Shown here: positions 23,830 to 31,245 of the stretch, piece by piece
Position numbering within the stretch: position 1 is the first letter of the stretch
Layout: each line of letters begins with the position of its first letter
Source of the DNA: Actinomycetota bacterium
GTDB lineage: Bacteria > Armatimonadota > SYMT01
Assembly (NCBI GenBank): GCA_005798285.1
Contig: SYKE01000020.1
Location: 1 to 34,481, forward strand
Direction: 5' to 3'
Length of the DNA stretch: 34,481 nucleotides
Program-made: the position numbers and the translations under genes
The notes under the pieces: generated by a model
Seen by the model: only the letters and a program-made list of their open reading frames with translations
Told to the model about the DNA's origin: nothing
Databases searched by the model: none

Positions 23830-24504
23830 ATGAACCTGGCTCCACCCGAGTCCGATCCAGGCCTGTCTCGAAGAGAGCGCAAGGCCGCCGAGTCTCGCGA
23901 CAAGATTTTTCGAGCCGCGATTGAACTCTTCTCCCGAGAGGGGCTCGACGGCGTCACCATCGAGCAGATCACCGAGCGAGCCGATGTGGGCAAGGGTCTC
24001 TTCTTCCATTACTTCCCGAACAAAGAGGCCGTTCTCAACCACTTCGGCACGCTGCAGGTGCTTCGACTGCGGGAAGCGCTGGCAACGGGCGAGATTTCCG
24101 GTCCACCCCGACGGCGCGCCGAACAGGTTCTCAGCCTTCTCTGCACCTATCCAGAGATCACACCGGAGCTGGCGCGAAACCTCTTTCTCTCGGCGCTCGC
24201 CACCCGGGAGTTCCGGGAGATCGGCGGACCCAACATCTGGGAGGTTCGCAACCTCCTGGCGGAGATCATCCGGGAGGGTCAGTCAACCGGAGAATGCTGT
24301 CCCACGGCAGCGGACCCACACGCGGCCGCGCTTTTCTTGCTGGGGCAGTACTTTCTCGGGCTGCTCGCCTGGTGCTCGGGGTTCAGCACCGACTCGCTGG
24401 AAAAGACGGTGCTGGACTTCGCCCAATGCGCCTTCAACGGGATCGATGTGGAGGGCGCCCCGTGCCGGACGTGCGAGCGCGCGTCGGACGACGGCTCGCA
24501 CTGA
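23830..24504 (+). CDS. TetR-family transcriptional regulator
   Basis: A 224-aa regulator. The N-terminal helix-turn-helix (about residues 14-60) is clear: RRERKAAESRDKIFRAAIELF, GVTIEQITERADVGKGLFFHYF, PNKEAVL. The ligand-binding half is all-helical with no recognisable specificity. GAGG lies about 11 nt before the ATG. The gene is divergent from the PHP-domain gene and 110 bp upstream of an arylsulfatase on the same strand, so either side may be its target; TetR proteins usually repress a divergent neighbour and themselves. I could not pick a convincing palindromic operator in the 176-bp intergenic region. The C-terminus CRTCERASDDGSH has two cysteines (CxxC), perhaps incidental. Confidence 0.92.
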   Translation: MNLAPPESDPGLSRRERKAAESRDKIFRAAIELFSREGLDGVTIEQITERADVGKGLFFHYFPNKEAVLNHFGTLQVLRLREALATGEISGPPRRRAEQVLSLLCTYPEITPELARNLFLSALATREFREIGGPNIWEVRNLLAEIIREGQSTGECCPTAADPHAAALFLLGQYFLGLLAWCSGFSTDSLEKTVLDFAQCAFNGIDVEGAPCRTCERASDDGSH

Positions 24505-24614
24505 CTTCCCTCTCAAAAAAACTGAGGCGGTCCGCGTTCCGGATCGAGGGTTCTCGGTGAACAGCATGAGGTGTGAGAGGGCCAACTCTCCACTTCGTTT
24601 CGGAAACCATCCCC

Positions 24615-26282
24615 ATGCGTCGAATCGCCCTCTGGATGTTTCTCGCCTGCGCGCTGTGCTGCTGTGGCGCCGGGTCTGCGGCGACCGCTCCTGCCGGCGA
24701 GGCGCTCCGTGGGCGGCCGAACATCCTTCTGATCCTGGCGGATGATCTGGGATACTCGGATCTGGGCTGCTATGGCTCCGGCGTTCGCACTCCAAATCTG
24801 GACCGGCTGGCGGCGGAAGGCGTACGCTTCTCGCAGTTCTACAACGCCGCCCGCTGCTGCCCCACCCGCGCCGCGCTCCTCACCGGCCTCTATCCGCACC
24901 AGGCCGGGGTGGGACACATGCTGCAGAACTGGCATCCGCCGGCGTACACCTCCGGGATCGGGGAAGACACCGCCACCCTTGCGGAGACGCTGCGGACGGG
25001 CGGCTACGCGTCTTACCACGTCGGCAAGTGGCACGTCGGTGGAGTCGGCGCGGCGGTTGGCCGGAACCATCCCCTGAACCGCGGCTTCGAGCATGCCTAC
25101 GGCACCGGCGGCGGGGGCAACTACTTTGCGCCGCAGCCGCTCTACCGGGATCGCGAGTCGGTTCGGCCCGAGGGCGACTACTACGTCACCGATGCCTTCT
25201 CGGAGTGGGCCGCGCGCTACATTCGGGAGCACCGACAATCCGCACCGGACCGTCCCTTCTTCCTGAACCTCTGCTACACCGCGCCGCACTTCCCGCTGCA
25301 CGCCCGCACCGAAGACATCAACCGCTACCTCGGCACGTTCCGTCGGGGATGGGATCACGAGCGAGCCGTCCGTTTCGCACGGCAGCGGCAGCTCGGGCTC
25401 GTGCAGCGAGAGTGGAGCCTTTCCCATCGCGATCCCGTGGCCCAACCCTGGTCGGAGGTCCGCGACGAGACAGCCATCGCCGAGTGGGATCGACGAATGG
25501 CGGTGCACGCCGCGATGATCGATCGCATGGATCAGGGCATCGGACATGTGCTCTCGGCCCTGCGGGAGACCGGGCAGGAGAAGAACACGCTGGTGCTGTT
25601 CCTCTCCGACAATGGCGCCAGCGCCGAGGCGCTCGACTCCTGGCCCAATCCGGCTCGGGGTCACCGTCCCGGCGCGGTTGTGGGCGCCGCCGACTCGCAT
25701 CGCTGTCTGGAGATCGGCTGGGCGAATGCCGCCAACACGCCCTTTCGCGAGAACAAGATGTGGGTTCACGAGGGCGGCATCTCCACCCCGCTCATCGCAC
25801 ACTGGCCGGGGCACGTGCGCAATCCCGGTTCCGTGGCCGGTTCGGTCGGCCACATCATCGATCTGATGCCCACCTTCCTGGATGCCGCGGGCCTCAGCTA
25901 TCCGACGATGCTGGGCGGTCGCACGCTCCGTCCGCTCGAAGGCGTGAGCCTGCTGCCCGCGCTGAGGGGCAGGTCGCTCGGACCGAGACGTCTGGGCTGG
26001 GAGCATGAAGGGAATCGCGCCTATCGCGATGGAGACTGGAAAGTGGTGGCGACGCATCGAGGCCACTGGGAACTGTACGATCTGGCGGCGGATCGGACGG
26101 AAACGCAGGACCTCGCCACGCGGATGCCGGAGAAGACCCGGGAGATGGCCGCAGCCTGGCAGAAGTGGGCCGAGCGGTTGGGCGTGGTCCCGTGGGAAAC
26201 GCTGCCCGGTTCGAGTTACCGTCCCACCCCGGGCTATCGCCGAAAGTCCGAGCCGCCGCTTTCAACCGTCGCGCCGTTGTAG
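24615..26282 (+). CDS. Exported arylsulfatase-type sulfatase
   Basis: A 555-aa type I sulfatase hydrolysing sulfate esters outside the cytoplasm. A signal peptide (MRRIALWMFLACALCCC...) is followed by RPNILLILADDLGYSDLG with metal ligands Asp43/Asp44. The formylglycine site is C81-C-P-T-R in ARCCPTRAALLTG, with Cys81 the residue to be oxidised. GKWHVGG, the SDNGASAE metal site near 335 and the C-terminal YDLAADRTETQDLA block are also present. It is a complete, canonical member of the arylsulfatase A/ATSA group. An upstream in-frame start at 24573 lacks a signal and is rejected. A formylglycine-generating enzyme is needed and not seen here. It is in line with the TetR gene and with a second sulfatase 0.8 kb downstream. 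A hairpin follows the stop. Confidence 0.94.
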   Translation: MRRIALWMFLACALCCCGAGSAATAPAGEALRGRPNILLILADDLGYSDLGCYGSGVRTPNLDRLAAEGVRFSQFYNAARCCPTRAALLTGLYPHQAGVGHMLQNWHPPAYTSGIGEDTATLAETLRTGGYASYHVGKWHVGGVGAAVGRNHPLNRGFEHAYGTGGGGNYFAPQPLYRDRESVRPEGDYYVTDAFSEWAARYIREHRQSAPDRPFFLNLCYTAPHFPLHARTEDINRYLGTFRRGWDHERAVRFARQRQLGLVQREWSLSHRDPVAQPWSEVRDETAIAEWDRRMAVHAAMIDRMDQGIGHVLSALRETGQEKNTLVLFLSDNGASAEALDSWPNPARGHRPGAVVGAADSHRCLEIGWANAANTPFRENKMWVHEGGISTPLIAHWPGHVRNPGSVAGSVGHIIDLMPTFLDAAGLSYPTMLGGRTLRPLEGVSLLPALRGRSLGPRRLGWEHEGNRAYRDGDWKVVATHRGHWELYDLAADRTETQDLATRMPEKTREMAAAWQKWAERLGVVPWETLPGSSYRPTPGYRRKSEPPLSTVAPL

Positions 26283-26354: not shown

Positions 26355-26948
26355 ATGCCTGTTTCCCGCAAGTTCACTCTGGTGCTCGGCGCTGCTGTCG
26401 CGGCGTTCTTTTTCGGCGCCGGGCGCTCGTCCGGCCAGGGGGCGCCCGATCCCGCCGCCCTCATGACCGCACAGCGGGACGCGATGAAGCGGCTCGCCTT
26501 TATGGACGGTCAATGGCGCGGGCCTGCCTCTATCACGCTGCCGAACGGGCAGAAGCACACTGTCACTCAAACCGAGCGCGTGGGGCCGATGCTGGATGGA
26601 ACCATTCGCGTTGTCGAGGGGCGAGGCTACGAAGCCGACGGCAAGACCGCGTTCAACGCGCTGGCAGTGGTGTCCTACGATCCGGCGAAGAAGAGCTACT
26701 CGCTTCGTTCATACGCGCAGGGCCGATCCGGCGACTTCACGCTCACGCCGACGGAACGGGGTGTGAAGTGGGAGATCGAGGCGGGGCCAATGACCATTCG
26801 CTACACGGCGGAGATCGCGGACGGCAAGTGGCACGAGATCGGTGAGCGGATCCTGCCCGGCCGCGATCCGATCCGCTTCCACGAGATGACCCTCACCCGC
26901 ATCGGAGACACGAAGTGGCCGTCCGCGGATGCCGTACCGCCGCAGTAG
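26355..26948 (+). CDS. Small exported DUF1579-like protein
   Basis: A 197-aa protein with a signal peptide (about 1-30: FTLVLGAAVAAFFFGAGRSSGQ) and a compact beta-rich domain. The opening MKRLAFMDGQWRGPA, VVEGRGYEADGKTAFNALAVVSYDPAKK and the closing WHEIGERI...RFHEMTLTRIG follow the lipocalin-like pattern of DUF1579 and related domains ('FL.G.W.G...G.G...yd...'). No catalytic residues are known for the family. AGAGGG lies about 8 nt before the ATG. It sits between two sulfatases on the same strand, but a terminator-like hairpin precedes it, so membership in one operon is unproven. I recognise the fold only by pattern. Confidence 0.7.
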   Translation: MPVSRKFTLVLGAAVAAFFFGAGRSSGQGAPDPAALMTAQRDAMKRLAFMDGQWRGPASITLPNGQKHTVTQTERVGPMLDGTIRVVEGRGYEADGKTAFNALAVVSYDPAKKSYSLRSYAQGRSGDFTLTPTERGVKWEIEAGPMTIRYTAEIADGKWHEIGERILPGRDPIRFHEMTLTRIGDTKWPSADAVPPQ

Positions 26949-27120: not shown

Positions 27121-29235
27121 ATGAAAAGCCGTGTGAATTGGAAGAGGCTCTCGGTAGCTTGCTCGCTCCTCGTGGTCGCCGCGGGAGCGGCTCGCTCGGC
27201 CCAATCACTCCCGGCAGTCCGGCGGCCAAACCTCATCCTCGTCCTGATCGACGATATGGGCTGGGGCGACTTCTCCTGTTTCGGCAACAAGGATGCCCGC
27301 ACCCCGAACATCGATCGGCTGGCCGCGGAGGGGATCCGGTTCACGCAGTTCTACGTGAACGCTCCGATCTGTTCGCCCTCGCGCTGCGCCCTCACCACTG
27401 GCCAGTACCCACAGCGCTGGAAGATCACGTCCTACCTCAACAATCGGGCAGACAACGCCCGGCGGGGTGTGGCCGACTGGCTCGATCCGAAGGCGCCCAG
27501 TCTGGCGCGTGTCTTGAAGTCGCACGGCTACGCCACGGGTCACTTCGGCAAGTGGCATCTGGGCGGGCAGCGCGATGTCGACAACGCGCCTCCCATCAGC
27601 GACTATGGGTTTGAGGAGTCGCTCACGAACTTCGAGGGGATGGGTCCCAAGCTATTGCCGCTCACGCTGCGCCCGGGTCAGGCGCAGCCGGGGCGGATCT
27701 GGGCCGACGCCGAGCGACTGGGCGGCCCCGTCACCTGGATGCAGCGCTCCCGGATCACCACCGGCTACATCGATGCCGCCCGACAATTCATGGATCGGGC
27801 TCAACGCGACGGGAAGCCGTTCTACATCAATCTCTGGCCGGACGACGTACACAGTCCGTTCTGGCCACCGGTGGAGAAGTGGGCCGACACCAAGCGAGGA
27901 CTCTATCTCTCGGTGTTGCAGGAGCTGGACTCGCAGTTGGGGCGGCTGTTCGATTACCTGAGGGAGGACCCCGCACGGCGCGACAACACGCTGGTGCTGG
28001 TCTGTTCCGACAACGGTCCGGAGCCCGGCGCGGGGAGTGCGGGTCCATTTCGAGGCGCCAAGACCCGACTCTACGAGGGCGGCGTCCGCTCTCCCTTGAT
28101 CGCCTGGGGTCCGGGTCTGGTCCGGAAGGCGCGTGCCGGATCTCGGGACTCGACGTCTGTCTTCGCCGCGTTCGATCTGGCGCCGTCGCTGCTTCGGGTG
28201 GCGGGGGTTCAGGCCGGCGGAGTCTCGTTCGACGGAGAGAATGTCTCCGAAGCGCTGTTGGGTCGTGCCGCGCTCTCCCGCCGGGCGCCGATCTTCTGGA
28301 GTAGACCGCCGGATCGGAAGCAAGGGGGGCCCCTGGATCCACAGCCCCAACCGGATCTGGCTGTCCGCGATGGGAAGTGGAAGCTTCTCTGCGAATACGA
28401 TGGCAGCCGATTGGAGCTGTACGATCTGGAGAATGATCCATCCGAGCGAACGAACCTGGCGGAGCGGGAGCCCGAGGCGGCAGCCCGGCTGAAGGCGGCG
28501 CTTCTGAGCTGGCGCCGATCCATGCCGTCCGACCGCGGCCCCGAGCTGGGCAGCCGGCAAGAACCCGTCGCGCCCGCCGTACCGCCGGTTCCCGTTCGCG
28601 AAACCCGCCGGATCGCGGGGTGGACCGTCCATATCAATCAGGCGTTGTTGACCGAGCAGCAGCGACTCACCGAACGGGCGCTGGAACTGCTGAAGCAGCA
28701 GTTGGATGAGATCGTGCGAAGCGTCCCCGCGCCGGCCGTGGAGCAGCTCCGTCGCGTGCCGCTCTACATCTCGCCGGAGTACCCCGGAGTCCCGCCGCGG
28801 GCCGAGTATCACCCCGGGGCCGCCTGGCTTCGCGCGAACGGGCGCGACCCGGCCATGGAGAAGGCCGTTGAGTTCACGAACGTCCGCATCTTCGAGCAGG
28901 AGGTCTCCCGGATGCCGAACTTCGCGCTCCACGAGCTGGCGCACGCCTATCACGACCGTTTCCTGCCCGGCGGCCACCAGCACGCCGGCGTCCGCGCGGC
29001 CTTCGAGCGGGCGAAAGCAAGCGGATCCTACGATCGGGTCGAGCGCCGCCACGGCTCGGGCCGACCCAACAGCTTCGACCGGGCCTACGCGCTGTCAAGC
29101 CCGGCGGAATACTTCGCTGAGAGCACGGAGGCGTTCTTCTCGCGGAACGACTTCTATCCGTTCACCCGCGACGAGCTTCGCCGCCACGACCGGGCCATGT
29201 ACGACCTTCTCCGCGAACTCTGGCGCGTCGAATAG
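27121..29235 (+). CDS. Sulfatase fused to an HExxH metallopeptidase domain
   Basis: A 704-aa exported protein with two enzyme domains. After a signal peptide (about 1-27) the sulfatase domain (35-465) has RPNLILVLIDDMGWGD (metal Asp44/45), the formylglycine site C84-S-P-S-R, HFGKWHLGG, and SDNGPEPG. A Pro-rich linker (about 475-495) follows. The C-terminal domain (about 500-704) begins IAGWTVHINQALLTEQQ and has HELAHAYH with zinc ligands His604/His608 and catalytic Glu605. Downstream AEYFAESTEAFFSRNDFYPF offers a third ligand (Glu667 or Glu670), as in gluzincin-type peptidases. I recall this metallopeptidase-like domain in planctomycete/verrucomicrobial secreted proteins, but not its name. 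Both active sites look complete, implying action on sulfated glycoproteins or mucin-like material. No terminator is visible after it; a gene remnant starts 6 bp downstream. Confidence 0.88.
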   Translation: MKSRVNWKRLSVACSLLVVAAGAARSAQSLPAVRRPNLILVLIDDMGWGDFSCFGNKDARTPNIDRLAAEGIRFTQFYVNAPICSPSRCALTTGQYPQRWKITSYLNNRADNARRGVADWLDPKAPSLARVLKSHGYATGHFGKWHLGGQRDVDNAPPISDYGFEESLTNFEGMGPKLLPLTLRPGQAQPGRIWADAERLGGPVTWMQRSRITTGYIDAARQFMDRAQRDGKPFYINLWPDDVHSPFWPPVEKWADTKRGLYLSVLQELDSQLGRLFDYLREDPARRDNTLVLVCSDNGPEPGAGSAGPFRGAKTRLYEGGVRSPLIAWGPGLVRKARAGSRDSTSVFAAFDLAPSLLRVAGVQAGGVSFDGENVSEALLGRAALSRRAPIFWSRPPDRKQGGPLDPQPQPDLAVRDGKWKLLCEYDGSRLELYDLENDPSERTNLAEREPEAAARLKAALLSWRRSMPSDRGPELGSRQEPVAPAVPPVPVRETRRIAGWTVHINQALLTEQQRLTERALELLKQQLDEIVRSVPAPAVEQLRRVPLYISPEYPGVPPRAEYHPGAAWLRANGRDPAMEKAVEFTNVRIFEQEVSRMPNFALHELAHAYHDRFLPGGHQHAGVRAAFERAKASGSYDRVERRHGSGRPNSFDRAYALSSPAEYFAESTEAFFSRNDFYPFTRDELRRHDRAMYDLLRELWRVE

Positions 29236-29433: not shown

Positions 29434-29994
29434 CTAGCGGCCCGACGCCGGTTCGTCTGGTGGCTCGATCGCTGGAAGAAGCTCCTGGAAAGAGACCAGC
29501 TTCAGAGCGAAGCGGTGGTGCAGGCGCCATTCCTCTTTGATGGCGTCCGCCTCTGGAACCGTCAGCGCGCCTTCCTTGATGCTCCGTAGAATGATGTCGG
29601 ATGTCGTGAGGATGGAGAGGGTGGGGTAGACACGGGTCGCGGCGGTGATAGCCTTCCGGTCATCCATCGCCAGGAGCGCACCGTCTCTGTGAGCAGCGAC
29701 AATCGAAACAGATTCGCCGTCACCGAGGCCCATGCCGACCAGGTGTGCCGCCGCTTGAAGATCAGCATGCACGGAGAGGGACACTTCGTGGAACTCGCCC
29801 TGCGCCAGAGCCTTCTCCAATTCGTTTGACTGGTAGCGCTCCGAGATCTCGCGCCGCACCACGTCTGTTACCAGGAGACGATAGGGGAGGCGGGTCAAGA
29901 GATCCCGCCTCCCGATGCGCAGGAAGTTAATAAGTGTCGAGGAGTCTGATAGGAGCAGGTCGTCAGCTTCCACGACAAGGGGTTGGTCCGCCAT
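29434..29994 (-). CDS. PIN-domain protein, probable toxin ribonuclease
   Basis: A 186-aa protein with PIN-nuclease features: LLLSDSSTLINFL with Asp17, VVRREISERY with Glu49, GLGDGESVSIVAA with Glu94, and LLAMDDRKAI with Asp111/112. These are the four acidic positions that hold the metal in VapC-type RNases. ATG 29994 is chosen because GTGGGG lies about 10 nt before it; GTG 30009 would add five residues. The gene starts 18 bp after the stop of the XRE-ImmA gene on the same strand, so the two form an operon with the regulator first. PIN proteins next to ImmA-type peptidases are a known gene arrangement and are usually read as toxin-antitoxin-like. Toxicity is inferred. No VapB-like small antitoxin is present; the XRE-ImmA protein would take that role. 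Confidence 0.82.
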   Translation of the reverse strand: MADQPLVVEADDLLLSDSSTLINFLRIGRRDLLTRLPYRLLVTDVVRREISERYQSNELEKALAQGEFHEVSLSVHADLQAAAHLVGMGLGDGESVSIVAAHRDGALLAMDDRKAITAATRVYPTLSILTTSDIILRSIKEGALTVPEADAIKEEWRLHHRFALKLVSFQELLPAIEPPDEPASGR

Positions 29995-30012
29995 GCCCGT
30001 AAACCCCACGCG

Positions 30013-31245
30013 TTACCGACCGCTGCGGACCAACTCCAGAAGCTGTTCGCCCTCTGCGATCCCGAGTTTGTCGCATACGTCGAGCAGGCGTCCACCGGAG
30101 ATCGCTTCTTGCCGATAGGCTTCCACCGCCAGACGGCCAATTTCTGCGGTGAGCCTGGGCTGGTCGTCCTGTTCTCGCGCATCGGGGTTCCTGAGATGCA
30201 GAAGCCCAATGAGCTGCTGACCGAGCGGGCGCTGCAGCAAGAGTTCCTCAAGTTGCGGGCGGGTGATCCGCCCAAGGTCACTCAGCCGGTAGGCCGCGGC
30301 GTCGTAGCTCACCATGAACTCGTGGGCCAGGTATGCAACGTCTTGGTAACCAATGGTTTGAGAGCCGGGGGCGTTTCGGCGCTCAAAGTGCTCGCCACTT
30401 TCGTTCGCCACATCCCACACCCAAAAGGTCTCTCGGCTGCCCGCGCCTTTGTTCAGCGTGTCCAGTAGGTCCGTTACCCCGGCCGCCGGCATCAGGAACG
30501 CTGCGGCAAAGGCGTTGGCGCGCCGCTCCATGAGTTCGGTACCGTTCTGACGCTGCGTCACAGTCGCCGGATGGCGCAGGCGGTCCAGAAGCGCGTGGGC
30601 GTATTCGTGGCCGTATGAGAAGCGCCGTCTGCCGCGGGTGTGGCTCTCGTTAACCAGTATCGCAAGCCCGAGCGAGGGATGGGACAGAAAGAGGCCGGAG
30701 AAGTCATCTGGGAGCGCAGCGGCTGCCGCCCAGACCCCCTCACGAGCCAGGACCTCGGCGACATCTGCGATGGGGCGGGCGCCGAGATTGAGGCGCCGGC
30801 GTTCCTCATCTGCCACCGTTTCACCTTGCTCGGCTGCGTCTTCACGTCGCTCCGGCTCTGGCAGGTCATAGGCGGGTGGCGCCGAACGGGAACGCTTTCC
30901 GAGCAAACGCTCCAGGACGCACGCTTCCTGAAAGAGACCGAGGTAGCGCGAGATCTCCATCCGGACCAGGGGATGATCGGCCACTGCCGGCGCGATGCGA
31001 CAGAGAGCGACCAGCGGGCTCTCCGCCGCCGGCTCCTCGTCGCTAAGGAGCGAATTGAGGTCCCGGCGGTACAGCCGGGCCAGACGTACCGCCTCCAACG
31101 AGGTGAGCGCCCGCTTCCCGGTCTCAATATGGAGCAGCGCGGTGCGGGGAATGTTGATCGCGAGAGCAGCGTCCTCCTGGGTCAGACCACAGTTCTGGCG
31201 CGCATCGCGCAACCGCTCTCCGAGGGTGGTCTGGGTAAGGGGCAT
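30013..31245 (-). CDS. XRE helix-turn-helix / ImmA-IrrE metallopeptidase fusion
   Basis: A 410-aa cytosolic protein. Residues 8-66 are an XRE/Cro helix-turn-helix (LGERLRDARQNCGLTQEDAA, INIPRTALLHIETGKRALTS). From about 150 an ImmA/IrrE peptidase domain follows with HEYAH (His213, Glu214, His217) and the third ligand Glu240 in MERRANAFAAAFLMP. The last 100 residues are helical and unassigned. Such proteins (COG2856 fused to XRE) act as DNA-bound regulators or antitoxins whose peptidase responds to stress. AAGGA lies 5 nt before the ATG. A promoter with a palindrome over its -35 box lies 54 bp upstream, suggesting autoregulation. It is followed by the PIN gene. Sequence composition is like the rest of the window, so recent transfer is not obvious from GC alone. 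Confidence 0.9.
   Translation of the reverse strand: MPLTQTTLGERLRDARQNCGLTQEDAALAINIPRTALLHIETGKRALTSLEAVRLARLYRRDLNSLLSDEEPAAESPLVALCRIAPAVADHPLVRMEISRYLGLFQEACVLERLLGKRSRSAPPAYDLPEPERREDAAEQGETVADEERRRLNLGARPIADVAEVLAREGVWAAAAALPDDFSGLFLSHPSLGLAILVNESHTRGRRRFSYGHEYAHALLDRLRHPATVTQRQNGTELMERRANAFAAAFLMPAAGVTDLLDTLNKGAGSRETFWVWDVANESGEHFERRNAPGSQTIGYQDVAYLAHEFMVSYDAAAYRLSDLGRITRPQLEELLLQRPLGQQLIGLLHLRNPDAREQDDQPRLTAEIGRLAVEAYRQEAISGGRLLDVCDKLGIAEGEQLLELVRSGR

Follow-up and report, generated by a model that had tools for sequence, protein, structure and literature searches.

Among the described gluzincins, those closest to the predicted peptidase reported here belong to the families M34 and M90. 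PPEP-2 and PPEP-3 (MEROPS M34) are exported enzymes with an HExxH motif and a Tyr-x6-Glu pair, Tyr174/Glu181 in PPEP-2 (PMC9147577) and Tyr190/Glu197 in PPEP-3 (PMC12828418), and the PPEP literature consulted does not mention any fusion to a sulfatase, an esterase or dipeptidyl peptidase IV (DPP IV). MtfA, of Peptidase_M90 (PF06167), combines HExxH with a Tyr-x6-Glu-[FY]-F-A signature. For Svx of Pectobacterium atrosepticum, an exported gluzincin with a further domain, hydroxyproline-rich glycoproteins of the cell wall have been put forward as substrates (PMC9266454). CD1597 of C. difficile, with a PPEP-like domain and an intact HExxH, showed no proteolysis in assays (PMC11460543), and therefore a PPEP-like fold and motif are no proof of activity or of Pro-Pro specificity. 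As for sulfatases, PyuS of Pedobacter yulinensis (PDB 7stt) acts on aromatic sulfates and phosphates (PMC8746622).

In the present study, we analysed one stretch of DNA of 34,481 nucleotides (hereafter the window), in which a sulfatase and a predicted zinc peptidase are encoded as a single polypeptide. Its sulfatase half has catalytic motifs in common with PyuS and with the kappa-carrageenan sulfatase S1_16 (PDB 9fo1), but the solved chains of these two lack the appended peptidase. Its peptidase domain resembles PPEP-2 and PPEP-3 in fold (its best match), HExxH, Tyr-x6-Glu and apparent export, whereas no significant sequence match to them was obtained and the spacing from the second His to the third-ligand Glu is 55 against 40 residues in PPEP-2 and PPEP-3. 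With M90 it shares HExxH, the Tyr-x6-Glu-[FY]-F-A signature, an alignable catalytic half and a similarly long spacing (57 in M90); however, PF06167 scores are 250-295 bits for true M90 proteins in the phylum and about 22 for the window domain, and the M90 reading frames inspected have no leader, unlike the leader-like start seen here. Svx, likened by description only, is again an exported gluzincin with a further domain, but differs in its HExxH-x22-E spacing and M60-like sugar-binding residues (PMC9266454). In the freely accessible papers searched, a fusion of a sulfatase with such a peptidase is not described. The parts are known and their combination appears new; the wider and newer point is the module itself, a predicted exported gluzincin that has no name and many partners.

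The fusion gene and its sulfatase half

The gene is a single frame from ATG, free of internal stops, with the following features:

27121..29235, plus strand: sulfatase-metallopeptidase fusion gene, 704 aa (open frame and Pfam matches)
27121..27204, plus strand: N terminus resembling a Sec signal peptide, about residues 1-28 (by sequence: basic start, hydrophobic VACSLLVVAAGAA, then ARSAQS)
27226..28521, plus strand: type I (S1) sulfatase including its C-terminal subdomain, residues 36-467 (PF00884, SGSH_C, PDB 7stt)
27370..27384, plus strand: CSPSR formylglycine motif, residues 84-88, with Cys84 (sequence and homologue alignment)
28522..28599, plus strand: Pro-rich linker, residues 468-493, with P488-P489-V490-P491 (model confidence and sequence)
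28597..29232, plus strand: predicted PPEP/M90-like gluzincin domain, residues 493-704 (AlphaFold, Foldseek, hhalign)
28930..28944, plus strand: HELAH, predicted zinc-binding motif, residues 604-608 (sequence; within predicted helix 601-613)
29086..29088, plus strand: Tyr656, probable transition-state tyrosine (invariant in 109/109; Tyr-x6-Glu spacing as in PPEP-2/3)
29107..29109, plus strand: Glu663 of AEYFAE (662-667), probable third zinc ligand (invariant in 109/109; predicted helix 661-673)

The sequence-only reading, which saw a type I sulfatase, complete in itself, run on into a HELAH domain at the C terminus, is confirmed by the open frame and the motifs. PF00884 covers residues 36-363 (E 2e-47; 162 bits, cut-off 25) and SGSH_C residues 315-451. 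The expected site residues are all present, namely Cys84, Arg88, Asp44/Asp45, Lys144/His146, His244, Asp297/Asn298 and Lys314, and the active-site positions checked are invariant across six aligned sequences, the five homologues being 46-59% identical. Among solved structures the best match is 7stt (E 1e-63), and PyuS, the kappa-carrageenan sulfatase and GALNS-type enzymes are the closest. The sulfatase half most likely belongs to the GALNS-like/carrageenan-sulfatase-like branch of the formylglycine sulfatases.

The signal-peptide-like start suggests that the fusion protein would be exported. No hydrophobic leader is visible by eye upstream of the peptidase domain, while most stand-alone relatives carry one before the domain (38 of those scored), which argues for a true fusion and not for two genes that have lost a stop between them. 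In the full-length model, of which only the linker and peptidase parts were interpreted given a shallow alignment and a poor sulfatase half, residues 468-485 have a pLDDT below 50, consistent with a flexible tether.

Around the gene, a second complete-looking sulfatase (24573-26282) lies two genes upstream, preceded by a TetR-type regulator (23830-24504), possibly in one gene neighbourhood with the fusion. A 197-aa protein with no Pfam match (26355-26948) stands directly upstream on the same strand. On the minus strand, 29434-31245 holds an HTH + M78 (IrrE-like) protein beside a small one (about 190 aa), arranged in the manner of a toxin-antitoxin pair. No RNA family or promoter match was found near the fusion gene.

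The predicted peptidase domain between M34 and M90

The AlphaFold model of the C-terminal domain, built from 67 aligned sequences, reached a pLDDT of 96.0 and a pTM of 0.92. Foldseek against the PDB ranked PPEP-2 (6fpc) and PPEP-3 (9g3t) first, with probability 1.00, TM of about 0.5 and E of about 0.006 to 0.02. The lethal-factor- or gluzincin-like peptidase that had been proposed from the sequence thus finds its counterpart in M34, the MEROPS family to which the PPEPs belong as well. In the models HELAH lies on helix 601-613 and Glu663 on a later helix (661-673), the arrangement of a gluzincin.

At the sequence level, no Pfam or NCBIfam family scored above cut-off for this domain. Peptidase_M90 gave 21.5-22.3 bits against a cut-off of 26.2, covering only model positions 147-243 of 243, and ATLF (PF07737) gave 13-16 bits, below the 27.4 needed for membership. 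Such sub-cut-off hints recur among the relatives (M90 in 65/67, ATLF in 63/67), and some longer relatives exceed the ATLF cut-off, e.g., L034 at 32.6, which also has a second zincin domain. Searched by sequence, the PDB gave nothing significant for the single domain or for alignment A1, and for alignment A2 only weak matches to lethal factor and MtfA, at their third-ligand motif; in a viral structure library the only match was a weak one to a halophage protein (E 0.006). Aligned by hhalign with true M90 members of the same phylum, the domain gave 95.6% and E 1e-8 over 90 columns in the catalytic half. By this profile comparison, the predicted domain is a distant homologue of M90/MtfA in its catalytic half. 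Since the sequence cut-offs of both families are missed, it is, by the tests made, a predicted gluzincin near M34 and M90 and a formal member of neither. It most likely represents a peptidase family so far unnamed, closest in modelled fold to the M34 PPEPs and in sequence to MtfA (M90).

HExxH, Tyr656 and Glu663 are identical in 109/109 related domains, whether alone or fused, so that in these alignments the putative catalytic positions are conserved far beyond chance. The earlier view that both active-site signatures are intact is borne out by this and by the invariant sulfatase residues, and the downstream Glu which it had singled out is Glu663, seven residues after Tyr656 as in PPEP-2, PPEP-3 and M90. 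Neither a missing third ligand nor an unconserved motif, the two outcomes named beforehand as arguing against a peptidase, was found: Glu663 is a candidate ligand and the motif holds throughout. The domain would accordingly be expected to bind zinc and to cut peptides.

Partners, distribution and links to sulfatases

Of 291 genomes sampled from the window's phylum, 76 have the domain, and it is widespread in Planctomycetota and Verrucomicrobiota; no relatives were found on plasmids or viral contigs. One copy (G140) looks identical to that on a contig labelled Chthonomonas (L070), from which the phylum is probably Armatimonadota. In a sample of 110 copies, skewed to close relatives of the query, 43 stand alone, most with hydrophobic leaders, 27 are paired with a second HExxH (zincin) domain and no other partner, and the remainder include fusions to DPP IV (14), SASA esterase (12) and sulfatase (2), with single or few cases of GH127 (one), BD-FAE and others. 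Both DPP IV and SASA may precede or follow the domain, and must therefore have been joined to it more than once. When 109 domains are placed in a tree, well supported branches keep the window and L060, the two fusions with a sulfatase, apart, so the fusion arose at least twice; their sulfatase halves are about 28% identical. The window domain falls into a supported group (99/97) whose other labelled members are Planctomycetota and Verrucomicrobiota, at a distance from copies that stand alone in its own phylum; this position suggests lateral acquisition. From such comparisons, the predicted peptidase domain is mobile, a module attached to secreted degradative enzymes in several phyla.

The second zincin is a different HExxH/Tyr-x6-Glu domain, with HEFAH or HEMAH and then YA..N..EYFAEGVQSWFDNNRENDHDHNHVNT, found in either order with the module at 27 loci (among them L034, L063, L017, L004, L047, L052 and L107) and with weak ATLF/M91 hints only in Pfam. 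In the DPP IV-peptidase fusion at L046:2667-6161, the tail (roughly 1055-1162 of 1165 residues) looks like a sulfatase's C-terminal subdomain, matches the window protein at E 1e-7 and is perhaps the remnant of a triple fusion. L090:4134-5798 and L092:1-1956 show an N-terminal part with no Pfam match, then the module, then a hydrophobic tail.

Of the 48 PF00884 matches in the window's genome, a 5 Mb draft in 326 contigs (69% complete), 46 exceed the cut-off, as do 24 matches to the FGE family, numbers that suggest a specialist on sulfated polymers; the genome has one copy of the peptidase domain. Most of the closest homologues of the sulfatase half (55-61% in the genome search, 54-59% by tblastn) stop at the start of the linker, and the phylum sample yielded the fusion from a single genome. 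In the homologue at L141 (a sulfatase from this phylum; minus strand, frame containing 1501-2802), a lectin-like extension at the C terminus, judged by eye, takes the place of the peptidase. Separate, co-oriented sulfatase genes lie close downstream of the domain in L069, L081, L093 and L041, a hint of functional pairing. In raw counts, sulfatases are enriched about four-fold over the genome average around the domain; after related loci are collapsed P is about 0.02, and significance is lost at a doubled background density, so that we take the enrichment as no more than a hint.

The sequence-only reading had also offered that the peptidase might mature the sulfatase. We rejected a general role in sulfatase maturation or export, because a single domain copy faces 46 sulfatase matches over the cut-off, the nearest sulfatase homologues mostly do without the domain, and the domain itself occurs mostly alone or with unrelated enzymes.

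Possible roles of the fusion

The explanation that we favour, at a probability of roughly 0.6, is an exported bifunctional enzyme whose two halves act on the same sulfated, protein-containing polymer. The sulfatase half would remove sulfate from this polymer, the zinc endopeptidase half, on its flexible Pro-rich tether, would cut the peptide part, and the tethering would bring desulfation and peptide cleavage together on one substrate, perhaps a sulfated glycoprotein. We would guess, by analogy, at a proline-rich glycoprotein, because of the PPEP-like fold, the repeated DPP IV fusions and the one GH127 fusion. A bolder extension, unlikely but of some appeal, is that the domains are exported endopeptidases directed to proline, a new family in their own right, and that the fusions with DPP IV, GH127, SASA, sulfatase and a paired zincin would make up an unrecognised kit against sulfated, proline/hydroxyproline-rich glycoproteins, e.g., of algal or plant walls.

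What counts against joint action is the diversity of partners, through which the domain may add just general proteolysis. In the most serious alternative, it would be a generic exported protease or nutrient-scavenging module, joined to the sulfatase incidentally, with the two sites working on unrelated substrates. The many copies that stand alone, the unfused nearest sulfatase homologues and the weak neighbour enrichment all fit such a module. Nevertheless, sulfatase fusions arose at least twice, separate sulfatase genes directly adjoin other copies of the domain, and the partners that can be named are mostly degradative enzymes; we regard this alternative as doubtful, while giving it more weight than any other.

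That the module is catalytically dead, or no peptidase at all, and serves for binding or anchoring has a precedent in CD1597. Some loss of catalytic residues would be expected in a binding module, whereas HExxH, Tyr and Glu are retained in every relative, and we therefore consider this improbable. No more attractive is self-processing, in which the peptidase would cut its own linker between AVP and PVP (486-491) and free the sulfatase. The stretch A486-V487-P488-P489-V490-P491 does resemble the P-P-V-P type substrates of PPEP-1 and PPEP-2, and the fold of the domain is PPEP-like. However, Pro-Pro occurs in just 4/48 upstream linkers and PPxP in that of the window only, which is why we rate self-processing low; the other sulfatase fusion, L060, has no Pro-Pro linker motif, and cleavage at PPVP was set aside as the motif is not conserved in other fusions. 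Finally, an assembly or sequencing artefact joining two genes, conceivable in so fragmented a draft and in a phylum sample with no second copy of the fusion, is very improbable indeed in view of the continuous frame, the missing leader before the domain and the many analogous fusions in independent genomes, another sulfatase fusion included.

Returning to the bifunctional enzyme, a sulfatase and a peptidase in a single exported-looking protein provide a concrete lead on the breakdown of sulfated glycoproteins by environmental bacteria. Since dipeptidyl peptidase IV, acetylesterases and a GH127 arabinofuranosidase are likewise partners of the module, and since it has no family name, the characterisation of a single member would allow many unknown proteins to be annotated, from about a quarter of the sampled genomes of this phylum to many Planctomycetota and Verrucomicrobiota.
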